Positions 2,478 to 17,072 of a stretch of 36,768 nt of DNA are shown here, in pieces (positions within the stretch are counted from its first letter, which is position 1; each line of letters starts with the position of its first letter). The notes under the pieces were generated by a model. That model searched no databases. It saw only the letters and a list, made by a program, of their open reading frames with translations, and was not told where the DNA came from. A program made the translations under genes and the position numbers. This DNA is from a virus. The stretch covers positions 1 through 36,768 of IMG/VR virus record IMGVR_UViG_3300013119_000370. The stretch is one strand, 5' to 3'.

Positions 2478-2681
2478 ATGCCAGGCACCTCTCTGATGAC
2501 GGCCAAAGAGGCCGCCTCTTACTACCGCGTCAATCTCAGAACCATCTATGTTTGGGCCTCGCAGGATCCGCCCTGCGTGCCTTGCATCCGCATCGGGCGC
2601 ACGCTACGCTTTGTGCGTGACGATGTCATGCCCGTGCGTTCGGAGGTGGCAAGAGAGGAGGATAAATGCCACGTCCGATAA
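2478..2681 (+). CDS. excisionase-like helix-turn-helix protein
   Basis: A 67-residue protein of the small AlpA/Xis-like class. LMTAKEAASYYRVNLRTIYV is a helix-turn-helix, followed by a beta-wing (CIRIGRTLRFVRDDV). It directly precedes the integrase and overlaps it by 16 bases, the usual xis-int order. That position makes it the best candidate for the recombination directionality factor. Phased TTTCCAG repeats at 3821-3850 beside attP are possible binding sites. The 104 bases upstream contain only weak promoter-like elements (TTGAAA at 2401). Confidence 0.7.
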   Translation: MPGTSLMTAKEAASYYRVNLRTIYVWASQDPPCVPCIRIGRTLRFVRDDVMPVRSEVAREEDKCHVR

Positions 2682-3625
2682 GGGGAATGACCAAACGCGG
2701 GCCGGTCTGGTATGGGCGACTGTATCAGAACGGCAAGGAGAGGCGGGTGCGGCTAGGGCGCGACTATACCAAGGCGTGCGCCAAGTGGCGCCGCATCAAG
2801 AGAGAGGGCGCACCAGAGAAGCCCGCCCGGCCGATGACCATAAACGATGCGTGGCCGCGATGGCTGGCAAGCTACGTTGCCACGGCAAGAAACGAGCGCA
2901 ACCAGCGCGATGCCAAGGCCAGGGCAAAGCGCTACCTTAGCCCGGCGCTAGGCAGCATTGCGCTGGGCAGGCTCACCGAGGATGACCTGAGAGCCTACAG
3001 GCTGCACCTCGAGCGCGCAGAGCTCGCACCGCAGACCGTGGGGCATATCCTGAGCGATGTGCGCTGTATGCTCGGCTGGTGCGTCCGCTGCGGATGGTTG
3101 GACCGGTCGCCATTCCCGAGGCGATTGTTGCCCAAAGTGCCAGAGCGTGCGCCTGACAGGCTCACAGAGGCGCAAACGCAGGCGGTCTGCAGCACGCCTG
3201 ACCCATATGGCTTTGCGTGCCGCCTGGCACTTGCCACGGGCCTGAGATGGGGCGAGTTGGTCAAGGTGCAAGCCGCTGACGTGCAGGATGGGGTGCTCGC
3301 CGTGACGCAGCCTAAGACCGGCAAGCGGGTCGATGTGCCGTTGCCGCCGGCGATGCTCGCAGAGCTGCGCGGGCGGGTTGGCCTGCTGGTGCCCTATCAG
3401 CACTCGCAGAATTTCAACCGGCGGGTGCGCCAGCTGTCAGGCGTTGAGGACTTCCGCGTCCACCGTCTGCGGCACACCTTCGCCTGCAGGTGGCTGGAAC
3501 GCGGGGGCAGCATTGAGAAATTGCGCCAGATCCTAGGGCATAGCACGGTGCGGATGACTGAGCGTTACGGCAAGGTAAGCCGCCGGGAGTTGATTGAGGA
3601 AGCGAGGCGAGTTTATGGAGAGTAA
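2666..3625 (+). CDS. int: tyrosine-family phage integrase
   Basis: A 319-residue site-specific recombinase that would insert the phage into, and with an excisionase remove it from, the host chromosome. The arm-binding and core-binding regions fill residues 1-165. The catalytic domain carries R194 (TGLRWGEL), a candidate Lys near 217-220, H266 and R269 (HRLRHTFA), H292 (LGHST) and the nucleophile Y301 (MTERYGKV), so all active-site residues are present. GGAGG lies just before the ATG, which overlaps the excisionase-like gene. A partial tRNA-Cys begins about 45 bases after the stop, as expected for an integrase beside its attP. Confidence 0.95.
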   Translation: MPRPIRGMTKRGPVWYGRLYQNGKERRVRLGRDYTKACAKWRRIKREGAPEKPARPMTINDAWPRWLASYVATARNERNQRDAKARAKRYLSPALGSIALGRLTEDDLRAYRLHLERAELAPQTVGHILSDVRCMLGWCVRCGWLDRSPFPRRLLPKVPERAPDRLTEAQTQAVCSTPDPYGFACRLALATGLRWGELVKVQAADVQDGVLAVTQPKTGKRVDVPLPPAMLAELRGRVGLLVPYQHSQNFNRRVRQLSGVEDFRVHRLRHTFACRWLERGGSIEKLRQILGHSTVRMTERYGKVSRRELIEEARRVYGE

Positions 3626-3800: not shown

Positions 3801-3820
3801 TGCTGTAACCGCTTTGCTGT

Positions 3821-3850
3821 TTTCCAGTCGTTTCCAGACTTTTCCAGTCT
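3821..3850 (+). repeat. three 10-bp phased TTTCCAG repeats
   Basis: TTTCCAGTCG, TTTCCAGACT and TTTCCAGTCT follow each other at 3821, 3831 and 3841. The 10-bp spacing puts all three on one face of the helix, which suits cooperative binding by an excisionase or bending protein beside attP. Confidence 0.55.
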
Positions 3851-3864
3851 TTTATAGGGGCAAA

Positions 3865-7233: not shown

Positions 7234-7452
7234 ATGAGTATACTGACCGTTGACCCTAGACTAGCTGACAACATCAACGCCGCTGCTGCCAACCTGGGCG
7301 TCAGCACTGACCGCCTACTGACCGACCTCTACCAGATGCACGTTGCCGACGTTGCCGGCGTCTACTGCCGTGAGCGCCGCACCTACGGCCTGCTGTCCGG
7401 CCGCGTGACTGCTAACGAGCGGGCTGCGCTGCTCACCGATGGTGCGGCATGA
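7234..7452 (+). CDS. small hypothetical protein
   Basis: A 72-residue protein (MSILTVDPRLADNINAAAAN...). AAGGAG at 7219-7224 supports ATG 7234 rather than the longer frame from 7189. The sequence is mostly helical; LADNINAAAANLGVSTDRLL followed by a second helix could be a compact DNA-binding domain, though this is weak. Its TGA overlaps the start of the next gene (ATGA). A 100-base GC-rich gap without clear promoter boxes precedes it. Confidence 0.65.
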   Translation: MSILTVDPRLADNINAAAANLGVSTDRLLTDLYQMHVADVAGVYCRERRTYGLLSGRVTANERAALLTDGAA

Positions 7453-8120
7453 TCTACAAAGTCTTATCCGAGGGCGGCAAGCCCTGCAACGGCGGCTCTG
7501 GCCAGTGGCATCTGCCGAAGGGCAAGCGGCCTGGTAAGTGGATGCCTCGCATCAAAGACATTGAGCCATGCGTGCGCGGGTATCACCTCTGCGATGGTGA
7601 GCTGCAATTGCTTGAGTGGATTGGCCCAACGATATGGGAGGCCGAGTATGACGGTGGGCCGGTGCGTGAAGGTGACAAGATTGTTGTGCCGCGTGCGCGG
7701 TTGATTCGCAAATGTGAGCACTGGACAAAACACACGGCGCGTCTGTTTGCGGCCGAGTGTGCCGAGAGGGCATTGCCCATCTATGAGAAGGAAGCGCCGA
7801 AAGACAAGCGCCCGCGACTGGCAATCGAAGCGGCACGGAAACACGCAGGCGGGTTGATTACAGATGAAGAGTTGGCCGCCGCTAGGGCCGCCGCTGGGGC
7901 CGCCGCTGGGGCCGCCGCTGGGGCCGCCACTTGGGCCGCCGCTTGGGGCGCCGCTGGGGCCGCCGCTGGGGCCGCCGCTGGGGCCGCCGCTGGGGACGCC
8001 GCTGAGGCCGCCACTTGGGCCGCCACTTGGGCCGCCGCTGGGGACGCCGAGAGGCAATGGCAAGCCGATCTATTGCGCAAGCTGCTGGCCGGTGAGTGGC
8101 CAGAGGACGGCGCCGCATGA
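7449..8120 (+). CDS. DUF7666-like protein with alanine tetrapeptide repeats
   Basis: A 223-residue two-part protein. Residues 1-140 (EGGKPCNGGSGQWHLPKGK, IEPCVRGYHLCDGELQLLEW) resemble a phage-borne domain of unknown function with a Cys-Asn-Gly-Gly start and a GYHLC motif. Residues 143-202 are 15 tetrapeptides of the form A-A-[A/T]-[G/W/R/E], which should form a long alanine-rich helix. A charged tail (ERQWQADLLRKLLAGEWPED) ends it. The repeats are a 12-bp minisatellite in the DNA, so length may vary between isolates. Function unknown. It is coupled to both neighbours by ATGA overlaps. Confidence 0.8.
   Translation: MIYKVLSEGGKPCNGGSGQWHLPKGKRPGKWMPRIKDIEPCVRGYHLCDGELQLLEWIGPTIWEAEYDGGPVREGDKIVVPRARLIRKCEHWTKHTARLFAAECAERALPIYEKEAPKDKRPRLAIEAARKHAGGLITDEELAAARAAAGAAAGAAAGAATWAAAWGAAGAAAGAAAGAAAGDAAEAATWAATWAAAGDAERQWQADLLRKLLAGEWPEDGAA
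7875..8054 (+). repeat. 12-bp minisatellite, 15 units
   Basis: Fifteen tandem units of consensus GCCGCCGCTGGG, in frame with the host gene. Variants (GCCGCCACTTGG, GCCGCCGCTTGG, GACGCCGCTGAG) sit mainly in the middle and at the end. The tandem array also creates long false open frames on the other strand. Confidence 0.95.
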
Positions 8121-8725
8121 GACACGCCGCGCAGACCATAAGCTGGGGAGAGCTGGAGTACACACAGACGGGCCGTGAGCTGCGCACAATGGACGCATGG
8201 AACCACGGGCGCATTGACGGGCTGATCTATGGCGAGTGGCTGATGCGCGAGATGAACAGAGCAAGGGCGCGGTTCAAATGGACCATCGACGCACCGTGCG
8301 AGAGATGCCCTGACCTGAAGTGCAAGCGCCACGGCGCTGCTGTCTACCAGAGTATCTTTGTGCGCCCATACCGCTATGAGTGCCCCGAGTGCGAGCATGA
8401 GCAAGAGCGTCACAACCTAGACCTGCGCGAGCGGTGGAAGCGTGAGCGCACGCTGATACCTATCAGAGACAGGCGGCGCATTGCGCCCTATCGCGGGTAC
8501 ATGACTACGCCATACCTTTGCCGTCTGGCAAATTGGGCAGAGCGGTATCTATCCGATGACAGCAACCCACCTACCACCGGCACCTACATGGCGAAGCTGC
8601 ACGGTGAGTGCAGCCAATCATCAATGCTAGACGCACTGGGCATCCTTCGCAAGTGCGGCCTAGCCACGTTCGACAAGAGCCAAAGCGTGTGGATCTGGAC
8701 AGGGGGCAAGGGTGCCAGCGCCTAA
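8117..8725 (+). CDS. zinc-binding hypothetical protein
   Basis: A 202-residue protein coupled to the alanine-repeat gene through ATGA. ATG 8117 is chosen over the longer frame from 8096. C61, C64, C69 and H72 (CERCPDLKCKRH) and C89-x2-C92 (YECPECEHE) look like zinc ligands. The C-terminal part (MAKLHGECSQSSMLDALGIL, ATFDKSQSVWIW) resembles a winged helix. This suggests a DNA- or RNA-binding role in the replication block. No named family recognised. Confidence 0.7.
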   Translation: MRHAAQTISWGELEYTQTGRELRTMDAWNHGRIDGLIYGEWLMREMNRARARFKWTIDAPCERCPDLKCKRHGAAVYQSIFVRPYRYECPECEHEQERHNLDLRERWKRERTLIPIRDRRRIAPYRGYMTTPYLCRLANWAERYLSDDSNPPTTGTYMAKLHGECSQSSMLDALGILRKCGLATFDKSQSVWIWTGGKGASA

Positions 8726-9044
8726 GAACAACTACAGACGCGGCGCCGCGTTTGAGCGCAAGGTGCGCGACCACCTCTATGAGCAGGGCTTTACCTATGT
8801 GGTGCGCTCGGCCGGTTCGCACGGCCTGGCTGACCTAGTCGCCATGCGCCGGGATATGTGGTTGCTGGTGCAATGCAAGATTGACGGCAACCTACCACCG
8901 ACTGAGCGCGAGTTGCTAGTTGAGTTGGCTGACGATGTCGGCGCCCGTGCCGTCATGGCGGCCAGGGGCAAACGCGGCAAGATCGAGCTGCACAAGCTGG
9001 CCGGCAAGGATGGAGAGGTGATCTATGAGGAGCTTGAGTTATGA
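8712..9044 (+). CDS. Hjc-like Holliday junction resolvase
   Basis: A 110-residue nuclease of the PD-(D/E)XK fold, starting at GTG 8712 inside the end of the Zn protein gene. RRGAAFERKVRDHL carries E15. RSAGSHGLADLVAM carries S33 and D41. LLVQCK has Q54-x-K56 where E-x-K is more usual. This is the archaeal-type Hjc arrangement found in many phages. It would cut branched DNA left by replication and recombination before packaging. The Q-x-K variant occurs in related active enzymes, so I do not treat it as a defect. Confidence 0.8.
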   Translation: MPAPKNNYRRGAAFERKVRDHLYEQGFTYVVRSAGSHGLADLVAMRRDMWLLVQCKIDGNLPPTERELLVELADDVGARAVMAARGKRGKIELHKLAGKDGEVIYEELEL

Positions 9045-9292
9045 GCAAAGCTAATGCTGCGCCTCGCACCAAGGGCGAGCTTCGCCCGGGCGATGAGATT
9101 GTGTTTACCTATCGGCGGTGGGGCGAGGATGCGCATGACGCAGGCACCTACATGGGCGACCTCATCAAGGATGCGTGGTTTCTGCTCTACCAGTCGCAAA
9201 GCGACATAGACAACGGCAACCGCTCAATCAACGCCGTGCCTTGGCGGCACGTGACCAACTTCACCGCGTGGCCGGGGGGACAGGGCGAGTGA
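9041..9292 (+). CDS. small hypothetical protein
   Basis: An 83-residue protein coupled at both ends (ATGA before, GTGA after). It is rich in aromatic residues and looks like a small beta-barrel (GDEIVFTYRRWGEDAHDAGT, WFLLYQSQSDIDNGNRSI). No family recognised. Its position between the resolvase and the initiator gene suggests a helper in replication; this is inference. Confidence 0.65.
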   Translation: MSKANAAPRTKGELRPGDEIVFTYRRWGEDAHDAGTYMGDLIKDAWFLLYQSQSDIDNGNRSINAVPWRHVTNFTAWPGGQGE

Positions 9293-10110
9293 GCAAAGAG
9301 CAGGGCCTACCATATCTGGCCGTCTGGGCATCGGACACCCTAGCCCGAATCTATGAGACGGGCGAGCCGCCTGAGGTAACTGGCGCACGGCTCAGGCTCT
9401 GGCTCATTGCCTGCAAGCAAGAACCGGTTGGCACGCTGCCCGATGATATGGAAAGACTGGCCCGCTGGAGTGGGTTAGATGCCCGAGCAATGCATGAGCA
9501 TTGCTCGAGCATTACGGGTGGATGGAAACTGCGAAATGGCCGTTACCACATCAGGCGTATACAAGAGCAGCATTCTGAGGTGGAAGGACGGCGCGAGCAT
9601 GGCCGCAAAGCCGCTAACAGCAGGTGGGGCAAAGAGAAAACCCACCATGCCCGAGCAATGCCCGAGCAATGCCCGAGCAATGCAGAAACCGATGCCCGAG
9701 CAATGCCTCCATCTCCATCTCCATCTCCATCTCCAACAAAGAAGAAAGAAGGGCGCGCTAACGCGCCCGCCCTCTCTTCCTCTCGGGCTGACGCCCTGCA
9801 CGGTCACATCCTGACCATCACCGGGAAGGCGCCGCATCAATTGCAGTTGACCACTAAGCGCAAGGCCGCGCTACGCCAGCGGTGGAAGTATGCACTGAAG
9901 CTGCCCATTGAGCCAGAGCTGGCAGTACTCGGTGCAGTCATGGCGCTTGCGCGCATGGACTGGCACCAGAACGAGGGGCACACAGACCCGTACAAGTACG
10001 CGCTACGCTCAGATGAGCAGTTTGAGGACAGACTCGAGAAGGCCCGCAAGTTGGGTGTCACACCCGAGGCGGTTCAGAAAGCGATAGGAGGCGAGGATGG
10101 CGGACAATAG
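9289..10110 (+). CDS. replication initiator-like protein (DUF1376-like N-terminus)
   Basis: A 273-residue protein starting at GTG 9289, overlapping the previous stop. The N-terminal 110 residues (PYLAVWASDTLARIYETGEP, GTLPDDMERLARWSGLD, then a basic helix ending ANSRWG) resemble the DUF1376 winged-helix proteins found as phage replication initiators. A low-complexity linker (SPSPSPSP) follows, encoded by the iteron region, then a basic C-terminal domain (LTTKRKAALRQRWKYALKL). An origin inside the initiator gene parallels lambda O. No helicase or primase gene is visible, so host DnaB recruitment is likely. Confidence 0.7.
   Translation: MSKEQGLPYLAVWASDTLARIYETGEPPEVTGARLRLWLIACKQEPVGTLPDDMERLARWSGLDARAMHEHCSSITGGWKLRNGRYHIRRIQEQHSEVEGRREHGRKAANSRWGKEKTHHARAMPEQCPSNAETDARAMPPSPSPSPSPTKKKEGRANAPALSSSRADALHGHILTITGKAPHQLQLTTKRKAALRQRWKYALKLPIEPELAVLGAVMALARMDWHQNEGHTDPYKYALRSDEQFEDRLEKARKLGVTPEAVQKAIGGEDGGQ
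9479..9768 (+). other. candidate replication origin with 11-bp iterons
   Basis: ATGCCCGAGCA occurs at 9479, 9647, 9658, 9669 and 9692. There is a near copy at 9490 and degenerate ones at 9680 and 9703. The cluster at 9647-9702 has 11-12 bp steps, one helix turn. The palindrome TGCTCGAGCA follows the first copies (9502-9511). Downstream are 4.8 copies of CTCCAT (9707-9735), a purine tract (9736-9750) and the hairpin GGGCGCG-CTAA-CGCGCCC (9751-9768). Because 11 is not a multiple of 3, the units encode different amino acids, so selection is on the DNA. Confidence 0.7.
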
Positions 10111-15506: not shown

Positions 15507-17072
15507 GTGGGCAAGATCGACACCGCCGCCGCAGGCAAGGCCCTGCAGTTTGTGCGGCAACTCAAGCATACTAAAGGCCGCTGGGCGGGCCAACGCTTCC
15601 AGGTGCTACCGTGGCAGGCCGAGCTCTTGCGTGCGCTATTCGGCACGCTCAAGCCGAACGGCTTCCGGCAATACAAGACCTGCTACTGCGAGATCCCGAA
15701 GAAAAACGGCAAGAGCGAGCTTGCCGCAGCCGTGGCCCTGAAGCTGCTATTTGCCGATAATGAGCCGGGCGCGGAGATATTCTCAGCGGCGGCCGACCGC
15801 GATCAAGCCGCTATCGTGTTCAATGTCGCAAAGCAGATGGTGAAGGATGCGCCAGCCTTGGCGGCTAAGGCCAAGATCGTAGACAGCAAGAAAACCATTC
15901 ACGTCAAGAGCACCGGCAGCTTCTACAAGTGCCTCAGCGCCGAAGCCTACACCAAGCACGGCCTCAACGTACACGGCGTGATATTCGATGAGCTGCACGC
16001 GCAGCCGACCCGTGAGCTTTGGGATGTGCTCACCGTAGGCTCAGGCGATGCCCGGCAGCAGCCGCTTTACTTTGCCATTACCACGGCGGGCTATGATCGG
16101 CAGTCGATTTGTTGGGAGATCCACGAGCATGCGCGCCAGGTGGCCGAGGGCATCATTGACGATCCTACATTTCTGCCGGTTCTCTTTGCGGCAGATGATG
16201 ATGCCGATTGGGAAGATCCTGCAGTCTGGGCGGCCTGCAACCCGTCCCTGATACTTGAGGAAGGCGGGCCGGGCATCATCACGATGGAGAAGGTGCAGGA
16301 AGCATACCAGCAGGCCCTTGCCCGCCCGGCAGAAGAGAACAGCTTTCGCAGGCTCAGGCTCAACCAGTGGGTGCGCCAGGAGACGCGCTGGCTGCGTATG
16401 GGCGATTGGGATGCGTCGGCCGGCAAGGTTGACCCGAAAGCCCTAGAGGGCCGTGAGTGCTATGCGGGGCTGGATCTAGCGAGCACAACCGACGTTGCCG
16501 CGTTGGTGCTGGTATTCCCGCCGGTTGAGGAAGGCGGGCCGCATGAGGTGCTGCCCTTCTTTTGGATCCCCGAGGAGGCCGTGCGCGAGCGCACAGCGCG
16601 CGACAAGGTGCCCTATGAGCAATGGGTAGACCAAGGCCACGTTATCGCCACCGAGGGCAACGTGATTGATTACCGGCATATTCTCAAGCGCATCCTCGAG
16701 CTGCACAAGGTCTACAACATCAAAGAGGTTGCCTTTGACCGGTGGGGCGCGATTCAGCTAGTGCAGGACCTTGAGGGCGAGGGGCTAACGGTCGTGCCGT
16801 TCGGGCAGGGCTATGCGAGCATGAGCGGGCCGTCTAAGGAAATGGAGAAGCTAGTATTGGGTAAGCACCTAGCCCACGGCGGCAACCCCGTGTTGAGGTG
16901 GATGGCTGACAACGTCATGGTTAAGCAAGATCCAAGCGGCAACATCAAGCCGGACAAAGGCAAGAGCACTGAGAAGATTGACGGCATTGTGGCGACCATC
17001 ATGGCACTAGACCGGTGCATCAGGCATGAGGCAGAGGAGCCGAGCATCTATGAGACCACGCGCACTCTGTAA
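15507..17072 (+). CDS. terL: terminase large subunit
   Basis: A 521-residue DNA-packaging motor, starting at GTG 15507 with AGGAAGG upstream. The ATPase half has the Walker-A-like IPKKNGKSE (63-71) and Walker B VIFDE (158-162). The nuclease half has D323 (YAGLDLAST), D329, D410 (EVAFDRWG) and D491 (EKIDGIVA) as likely metal ligands. The lineage is the HK97/phage_terminase-1 type. It pumps DNA through the portal into the prohead and cuts at cos or pac. Length is normal, and no break is seen. Confidence 0.95.
   Translation: MGKIDTAAAGKALQFVRQLKHTKGRWAGQRFQVLPWQAELLRALFGTLKPNGFRQYKTCYCEIPKKNGKSELAAAVALKLLFADNEPGAEIFSAAADRDQAAIVFNVAKQMVKDAPALAAKAKIVDSKKTIHVKSTGSFYKCLSAEAYTKHGLNVHGVIFDELHAQPTRELWDVLTVGSGDARQQPLYFAITTAGYDRQSICWEIHEHARQVAEGIIDDPTFLPVLFAADDDADWEDPAVWAACNPSLILEEGGPGIITMEKVQEAYQQALARPAEENSFRRLRLNQWVRQETRWLRMGDWDASAGKVDPKALEGRECYAGLDLASTTDVAALVLVFPPVEEGGPHEVLPFFWIPEEAVRERTARDKVPYEQWVDQGHVIATEGNVIDYRHILKRILELHKVYNIKEVAFDRWGAIQLVQDLEGEGLTVVPFGQGYASMSGPSKEMEKLVLGKHLAHGGNPVLRWMADNVMVKQDPSGNIKPDKGKSTEKIDGIVATIMALDRCIRHEAEEPSIYETTRTL

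Follow-up and report, generated by a model that had tools for sequence, protein, structure and literature searches.

The DNA analysed here, referred to as the window, is a virus record of 36,768 bases. The genes scanned in the window include those encoding an integrase, an exonuclease, a Sak4-like annealing protein, an SSB-like protein, and an Hjc-type resolvase, together with a large terminase, a portal protein, and a lambda J-like tail protein. This gene content indicates a temperate tailed phage. The resolvase is the product of a small gene (8712–9044) located two genes ahead of a replication-initiator-like gene, and it matches archaeal-type Hjc Holliday-junction resolvases (E = 5e-10). Among the scanned genes of the window, none was recognised as encoding a helicase or loader. 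The initiator-like gene and the features within it are as follows.

9289–10110, plus strand: replication-initiator-like gene, DUF1376-like, 273 amino acids, GTG start.
9298–9639, plus strand: predicted N-terminal winged-helix DNA-binding domain, residues 4–117 (pLDDT about 90–98 for most of residues 20–110).
9479–9512, plus strand: upstream satellite box cluster, consisting of ATGCCCGAGCA ATGCATGAGCA and an inverted ATGCTCGAGCA, with GCAWTGC boxes at 9487 and 9498 (repeat and box search).
9647–9706, plus strand: main iteron array, with ATGCCCGAGCA at 9647, 9658, 9669, and 9692 (repeat search).
9707–9735, plus strand: CTCCAT tract of 4.8 copies, the form taken in the window by a tract with CCA every 6–7 nt (lag-6 scan and repeat search).
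9738–9753, plus strand: purine run AAAGAAGAAAGAAGGG (sequence).
9751–9768, plus strand: perfect 7-bp hairpin, GGGCGCG-CTAA-CGCGCCC, 44 bp past the last box (sequence).
9844–10089, plus strand: C-terminal helical region, residues 186–267 (helices modeled with low to moderate confidence).

The product of gene 9289–10110 matches Pfam DUF1376 (PF07120) only weakly (E = 4e-4, 21.1 bits, under the cut-off of 30.1). In a Pfam scan of the window protein up to E = 0.1, DUF1376 was the sole match, and Phage_rep_O (PF04492) and RepA_N (PF06970) were absent; as a positive control, the O protein of Gifsy-2 matched Phage_rep_O at 1.5e-30. The best PHROG matches were also weak, to 9327 (primosomal protein, E = 8e-5) and 345 (replication initiation O-like, E = 4e-4). 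The window protein is 36% identical to the DUF1376-like protein of relative L024, which was recovered by the DUF1376 seed profile, and another relative, L007, clears the Pfam DUF1376 cut-off. When the full-length window protein was used to look for relatives, a single near-identical contig was returned, with none from INPHARED, and a PDB sequence search returned no match. The protein is predicted to fold into a confident winged helix at approximately residues 5–117, followed by a low-confidence linker and helices at residues 186–267. Structures in the PDB that match the N-domain are generic winged helices with Z scores below 8. The motif AANSRWG closes the N-domain, with R112 and W113 encoded at 9622–9627. 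The C-terminal region is presumed to contact a helicase, its loader, or primase, a function that we infer.

A preliminary description of the window reported five exact copies of ATGCCCGAGCA at 9479–9768, mostly in 11-bp steps, followed by CTCCAT repeats, a purine tract, and a perfect hairpin. The positions of the copies were confirmed, and the downstream elements are exactly as described. The first copy, at 9479, lies 168 bp upstream of the main array, where three copies are strictly 11 bp apart and the fourth follows 23 bp on. The extent can be refined to the array proper and the separate satellite cluster, which also contains a degenerate copy at 9490 and the inverted ATGCTCGAGCA at 9502–9512. 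The 11-bp unit held in part; GCAWTGC boxes with spacers of 4 bp are a better description, the main array containing GCAATGC boxes at 9655, 9666, 9677, and 9700 (spacings of 11, 11, and 23). This 7-bp palindrome occurs six times in the 822-bp gene compared with 0.39 occurrences expected from the remaining window (P = 3e-6). The satellite cluster overlaps the codons of predicted helix 65–75, the probable recognition helix; it could conceivably serve as an extra binding site, for which there are no binding data.

When the entire 36.8-kb window was scanned at lag 11, 9647–9683 ranked first (score of 26) and 9479–9513 second (14), with the third-ranked segment scoring 9. At lag 6, the CTCCAT tract was the top segment. 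The claim that the protein cannot explain the repeats also held. When the gene was redrawn synonymously 20,000 times with the phage's own codon usage, ATGCCCGAGCA never exceeded two copies, and the most frequent 11-mer of whatever sequence, present five times in the actual gene, reached four copies in just 11 redraws. The lag-11 score of 26 compares with a maximum of 25 over 1,000 synonymous redraws. Synonymous redraws and shuffles thus lose the signal, and units occur in all three codon phases. The G+C content of 9707–9752 is 46% versus 60% overall, and we propose the CTCCAT tract as an unwinding or single-strand element by inference, without melting data. A near-identical relative, L025, has one CTCCAT repeat more than the window. 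The GC-skew shift suggested as a check was not clear, as the skew of the window shows no distinct turn at 9479–9768.

We then asked how widely the 11-bp period is shared. A first DNA-pattern search, for ATGCNCGAGCA occurring twice, yielded 21 contigs. In most of these, the motif lies within a DUF1376-like protein, in the linker directly past the N-domain, and is followed by a dipeptide-repeat tract (for example, SESESE, PSPSPS, or QNQNQN). As the main family sample, we used 76 non-redundant DUF1376/DUF4373-type genes from bacterial genomes, picked mainly by protein profile to avoid circularity; at a few loci where the locating profile failed, we took the ORF at the match center instead. A broad DUF1376 alignment proved too heterogeneous for pattern searching. 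In 24 of the 76 genes, local self-similarity at lag 11 was higher than in any of 40 synonymous shuffles, against an expectation of 1.9 genes. The same held for 12 genes each at lags 22 and 33, for 18 at lag 7, and for 14 at lag 6, but for only 0–1 genes at lags 8, 13, 16, and 17. Because synonymous shuffles preserve the protein, the 11-bp period is a property of the DNA. The lag-11 signal was not seen in the other 52 of the 76 sampled DUF1376-type genes, which may possess other repeats, may have decayed, or may not be origins.

Searches by DNA pattern gave the converse view. Three TGCNNNNGCA at 11-bp spacing fell within a DUF1376-type ORF at 87 of 118 loci, and three GTTSAAC at the same spacing, fetched by DNA pattern alone, did so at 110 of 120 loci. 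As a control, GCAWTGC at 10-bp spacing was found within such ORFs at none of nine loci. We rejected 11 bp as the sole spacing, since GCAWTGC at 12-bp spacing fell within such ORFs at 36 of 80 loci (16 non-redundant, all encoding the RW motif described below). L386, L388, L406, L415, L450, and others carry such 12-bp-spaced arrays (GCAATGCTCCAA...) in RW-type proteins, and one frame of the array encodes SNAPSNAP. In L415, CTCCATCTCCATCTCC comes after the 12-bp array, as it does in the window.

Among 44 non-redundant array-bearing viral genes, the units are distributed over the three codon phases (85/89/77) and show the same preferences at positions that were free in the search. At codon positions 1, 2, and 3, A or T occupies the unselected spacer position in 96%, 93%, and 100% of cases, respectively, compared with a background of 43–56%. 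Some of the family counts depend on the array detection rules chosen for this analysis.

Several individual loci deserve mention. L052 has a sixteen-unit array at 7241–7404 (GTGCTCAAGCA GTGCACAAGCA GTGCCTGAGCA...) within a replication-like protein whose N-domain was not recovered by the DUF1376/DUF4373 profile. In L048 (minus strand, about 5839 and 6183), a DUF1376 gene with a linker array is accompanied by a second array; the latter, with its CCA tract, begins 19 nt past the stop codon. The ORFs of L049 and L042 are short and end directly after the DNA-binding domain, with the arrays beyond the stop. In L049 (region 9203–9700), the ORF spans 9203–9574 and the array starts from about 9585, with a TTTCAT tract and hairpin also past the stop codon; in L042 (region 7653–8105), the ORF spans 7653–8012 and the array starts from about 8018. 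Taken at face value, these two loci would demonstrate a non-coding role. Another frame stays open there, however, which leaves a frameshift or an assembly error possible, and we do not treat them as main evidence.

The class of box appears to be matched to the protein. Reading the sequences suggested that '..RW' at the domain end pairs with GCAWTGC, 'AGKASA' with GTTSAAC, and 'GGRPKK' with AACCC. A first table of motif against box contained 4, 7, and 2 cases, respectively, none off the diagonal, from data partly the same as those that had suggested the pairing. Among non-redundant arrays, the RW motif accompanied 35 of 39 TGCNNNNGCA arrays versus 1 of 30 GTTSAAC arrays, and a relaxed AGxxS motif accompanied 0 of 39 versus 29 of 30 (P-values of 5e-14 and 1e-18 for the motif-box contrasts). 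The relaxed form was written after looking at the data; the strict AGKAS motif, with its regular expression fixed beforehand, was present at 17 of the 30 GTTSAAC arrays. These P-values overstate independence because the genes are related. No swap of motif and box class was seen among the 39 and 30 non-redundant arrays, and the AACCC class comprises very few cases. The window protein, in which ...AANSRWG... accompanies GCAWTGC boxes, fits the first pairing.

Downstream of the arrays, relatives possess tracts of 5–7-bp repeats (AACCAAT, CCAGACA, AACCAG, and ACCAAT) at the place of CTCCAT in the window. Of about 107 intervals between neighboring CCA trinucleotides on the coding strand, 78 measure 6 or 7 nt, and TGG chains were never seen in the tract. 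The CCA tract is independent of box class, because it is also present after GTTSAAC boxes (54 intervals of 7 nt). In some genes, mainly DUF4373-like, it is replaced by A- and G-rich repeats. A sub-group of DUF1376-like genes, in L007, L190, L192, and L194, has G-rich GGGACA repeats in place of CCA tracts, with mixed 5–7-bp and 11-bp steps; G-quadruplex formation is one possibility for these repeats. The first 40 nt past the array have a G+C content 9–11 points under the gene mean. Hairpins of at least 7 pairs are enriched 20–120 nt downstream of the array (15 of 44 versus 17 of 178 elsewhere; Fisher P = 1.5e-4), and likewise in the GTTSAAC class (9 of 30 versus 9 of 137; P = 1e-3). We rejected a universal hairpin: it is enriched, yet present in only about a third.

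Named relatives include proteins from phages of Vibrio, Bordetella, Pseudomonas, Acinetobacter, Moraxella, Paracoccus, Chlorobiaceae, and the cyanobacterium Leptolyngbya, and most of the linkers read among them contain box arrays, CCA tracts, or both. They occupy the position of lambda O, adjoining DnaB- or DnaC-like genes; in several, repressor, cro, or cII-like genes are followed by the DUF1376 gene and then by a DnaC/IstB-like or helicase gene. Nine long downstream neighbors, selected for their ATPase-like appearance, matched DnaB (six, one of them weakly) or IstB/DnaC-like proteins (three). Escherichia coli K-12 ydaU, in the Rac prophage, has TGTTCAAACA-type repeats at the corresponding place in its linker and adjoins the IstB-like ydaV. 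YdaU and Gifsy-2 O show 47% identity over their C-domains. YdaU combines a DUF1376 N-domain with TGTTCAAACA-type repeats, whereas Gifsy-2 O combines a Phage_rep_O N-domain with lambda-like repeats in 22-bp steps. The two proteins differ in N-domain and repeats and share the C-domain; therefore, the N-domain and repeats change together while the C-domain stays.

The anatomy at this locus (GCAWTGC boxes about one helical turn apart, a CCA tract, a purine run, and a hairpin, alongside a predicted winged helix) is evident in the sequence, and the order of box array, CCA tract, and often hairpin recurs in many relatives. We consider 9479–9768 most likely to be the replication origin of the phage, lying within the gene that encodes its own initiator, in the absence of replication, binding, or melting data. 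An origin within the initiator gene had been put forward in the preliminary description, and the comparison supports it: every point testable from sequence alone agrees, without replication data. A failure of relatives with the same protein to conserve the iterons would have refuted the proposal; they are conserved. In the proposed mechanism, N-domains would bind the GCAWTGC boxes side by side, neighboring monomers lying on nearly one face of the helix, to form a nucleoprotein complex that would melt the CTCCAT/purine tract, where the DNA is less stable. The initiator may hold one strand of the melted tract, with CCA every 6–7 nt, and the C-domain would recruit a host or phage helicase, its loader, or primase. 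The hairpin may form on the exposed strand, limiting or helping loading. The DNA-binding domain and its boxes would move as one module, with C-domains being exchanged.

An unlikely alternative is that the boxes are operator or handcuffing sites that regulate the gene itself or copy number rather than the start of replication. Iterons often double as regulatory sites, as is established for iteron plasmids, and the separate cluster at 9479–9512 could be one. However, the array lies 360–420 bp into the gene rather than at a promoter, and a repeat tract of lower stability and a hairpin lie beyond it, as in origins; moreover, the order of elements recurs with different box classes. We find it very improbable that the repeats are merely a neutral, slippage-prone, low-complexity protein linker. 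The linker is predicted to be disordered, and the hexamer count differs by one among near-identical relatives, as this explanation would allow. Against it, the signal is lost in synonymous shuffles, the motif appears in all codon phases with A or T at the unselected spacer base, and identical 7-mers tied to a protein motif occur in unrelated phages. Slippage would also not favor 11 bp together with one of few palindromes.

Alternatively, the DNA might help phages exchange DNA-binding domains and C-domains as a recombination linker, or it might act as a signal for packaging or partition. C-domains are indeed exchanged across the linker, and short shared repeats could promote crossovers. We nevertheless give this explanation very little credence, as it leaves unexplained the palindromic boxes, the 11-bp phasing, and the match to the motif in the neighboring domain. 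Packaging sites tend to be close to terminase genes, and the large terminase gene of the window is at 15507–17072.

The embedded origin resembles several known systems, and an origin in the initiator gene is already known from lambda O, SPP1 gp38, and RepA_N plasmids. In lambdoid phages (ori-lambda and Stx phages), the origin is within gene O (PMC7466680). The likeness to this ori-in-O arrangement, also noted in the preliminary description, held for the layout of iterons and an unwinding tract mid initiator gene and did not extend to the Phage_rep_O domain, which was not found. DNA binding by the N-terminus, predicted for the window protein, is likewise shared, as is, with several DUF1376 relatives, the gene order of repressor/cro/cII, initiator, and loader. 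Lambda-type origins differ in having a Phage_rep_O domain, longer iterons in 22-bp steps (Gifsy-2), and an AT-rich unwinding region, whereas the DUF1376 type has a DUF1376-like winged helix, 7-bp boxes every 11 bp, and a CCA repeat tract. The initiators of RepA_N plasmids, for example pSK41 Rep, also have the origin (Rep boxes) within the rep gene (PMC5703833) and share the winged-helix N-domain predicted here, boxes in the linker-coding part, and an exchangeable C-domain. RepA_N and DnaD structures head the VIA list for the window model, although weakly (Z of 5.5–5.7, residues 1–90). This comparison suggested kinship with RepA_N; a second one, using a canonical DUF1376 model, did not repeat the result. 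In contrast to RepA_N initiators, the window protein has no RepA_N Pfam match, and DUF1376-type phage genes adjoin DnaB or DnaC. SPP1 oriL is within gene 38, whose product gp38 is the origin-binding protein (PMC6316719); direct repeats and an unwinding element within such a gene, with the helicase and loader of SPP1 nearby, are common features, but our searches found no relation (the repeats were not compared base by base). At RK2 and F, winged-helix Rep proteins contact both the iterons and a single strand of a repeated unwinding element (PMC4081077), which by analogy is a precedent for the role proposed for the CCA tract. Those systems differ in having other Rep proteins and 13-mer repeats, as well as DnaA boxes at RK2 oriV.

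What appears to be new is the family-wide tripartite layout and the correspondence of box and motif; we found no paper combining DUF1376 with iterons in the open-access literature searched (subscription journals were outside its scope). A bolder reading is that DUF1376-type proteins form a large, unnamed class of phage initiators with a linker origin, in which the domain-end motif sets the 7-bp palindrome (RW for GCAWTGC, AGxxSA for GTTSAAC, and perhaps GGRPKK for AACCC) and the CCA tract is gripped as a strand-specific, single-strand element in 6–7-nt steps, comparable to DnaA-trios but unrelated to them. Taken jointly, these propositions are tentative, and the balance tips slightly against all of them being correct. 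A concrete function would be gained for a domain of unknown function in phages and prophages of several bacterial phyla, and replication origins could be read directly from the sequence of many uncultured phages. With the motif-box pairing, and with DUF1376 and lambda O N-domains swapped naturally on one C-domain, the specificity of initiator for origin can be probed by simple exchanges. The regularity of the CCA tract makes it a new case in which to ask how an initiator melts DNA and holds one strand.

Two further repeats were observed in the window. A 10-bp repeat, TTTTCCAGTC, is present in 3.4 copies at 3820–3853, about 195 bp past the integrase gene (2666–3625), and could possibly represent arm-type sites of the integrase. 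A 12-bp tandem repeat, GGCCGCCGCTGG, is present in 14.7 copies at 7874–8049 within gene 7449–8120 (Imm5-like by Pfam), where it encodes a stretch rich in Ala, Gly, and Trp.
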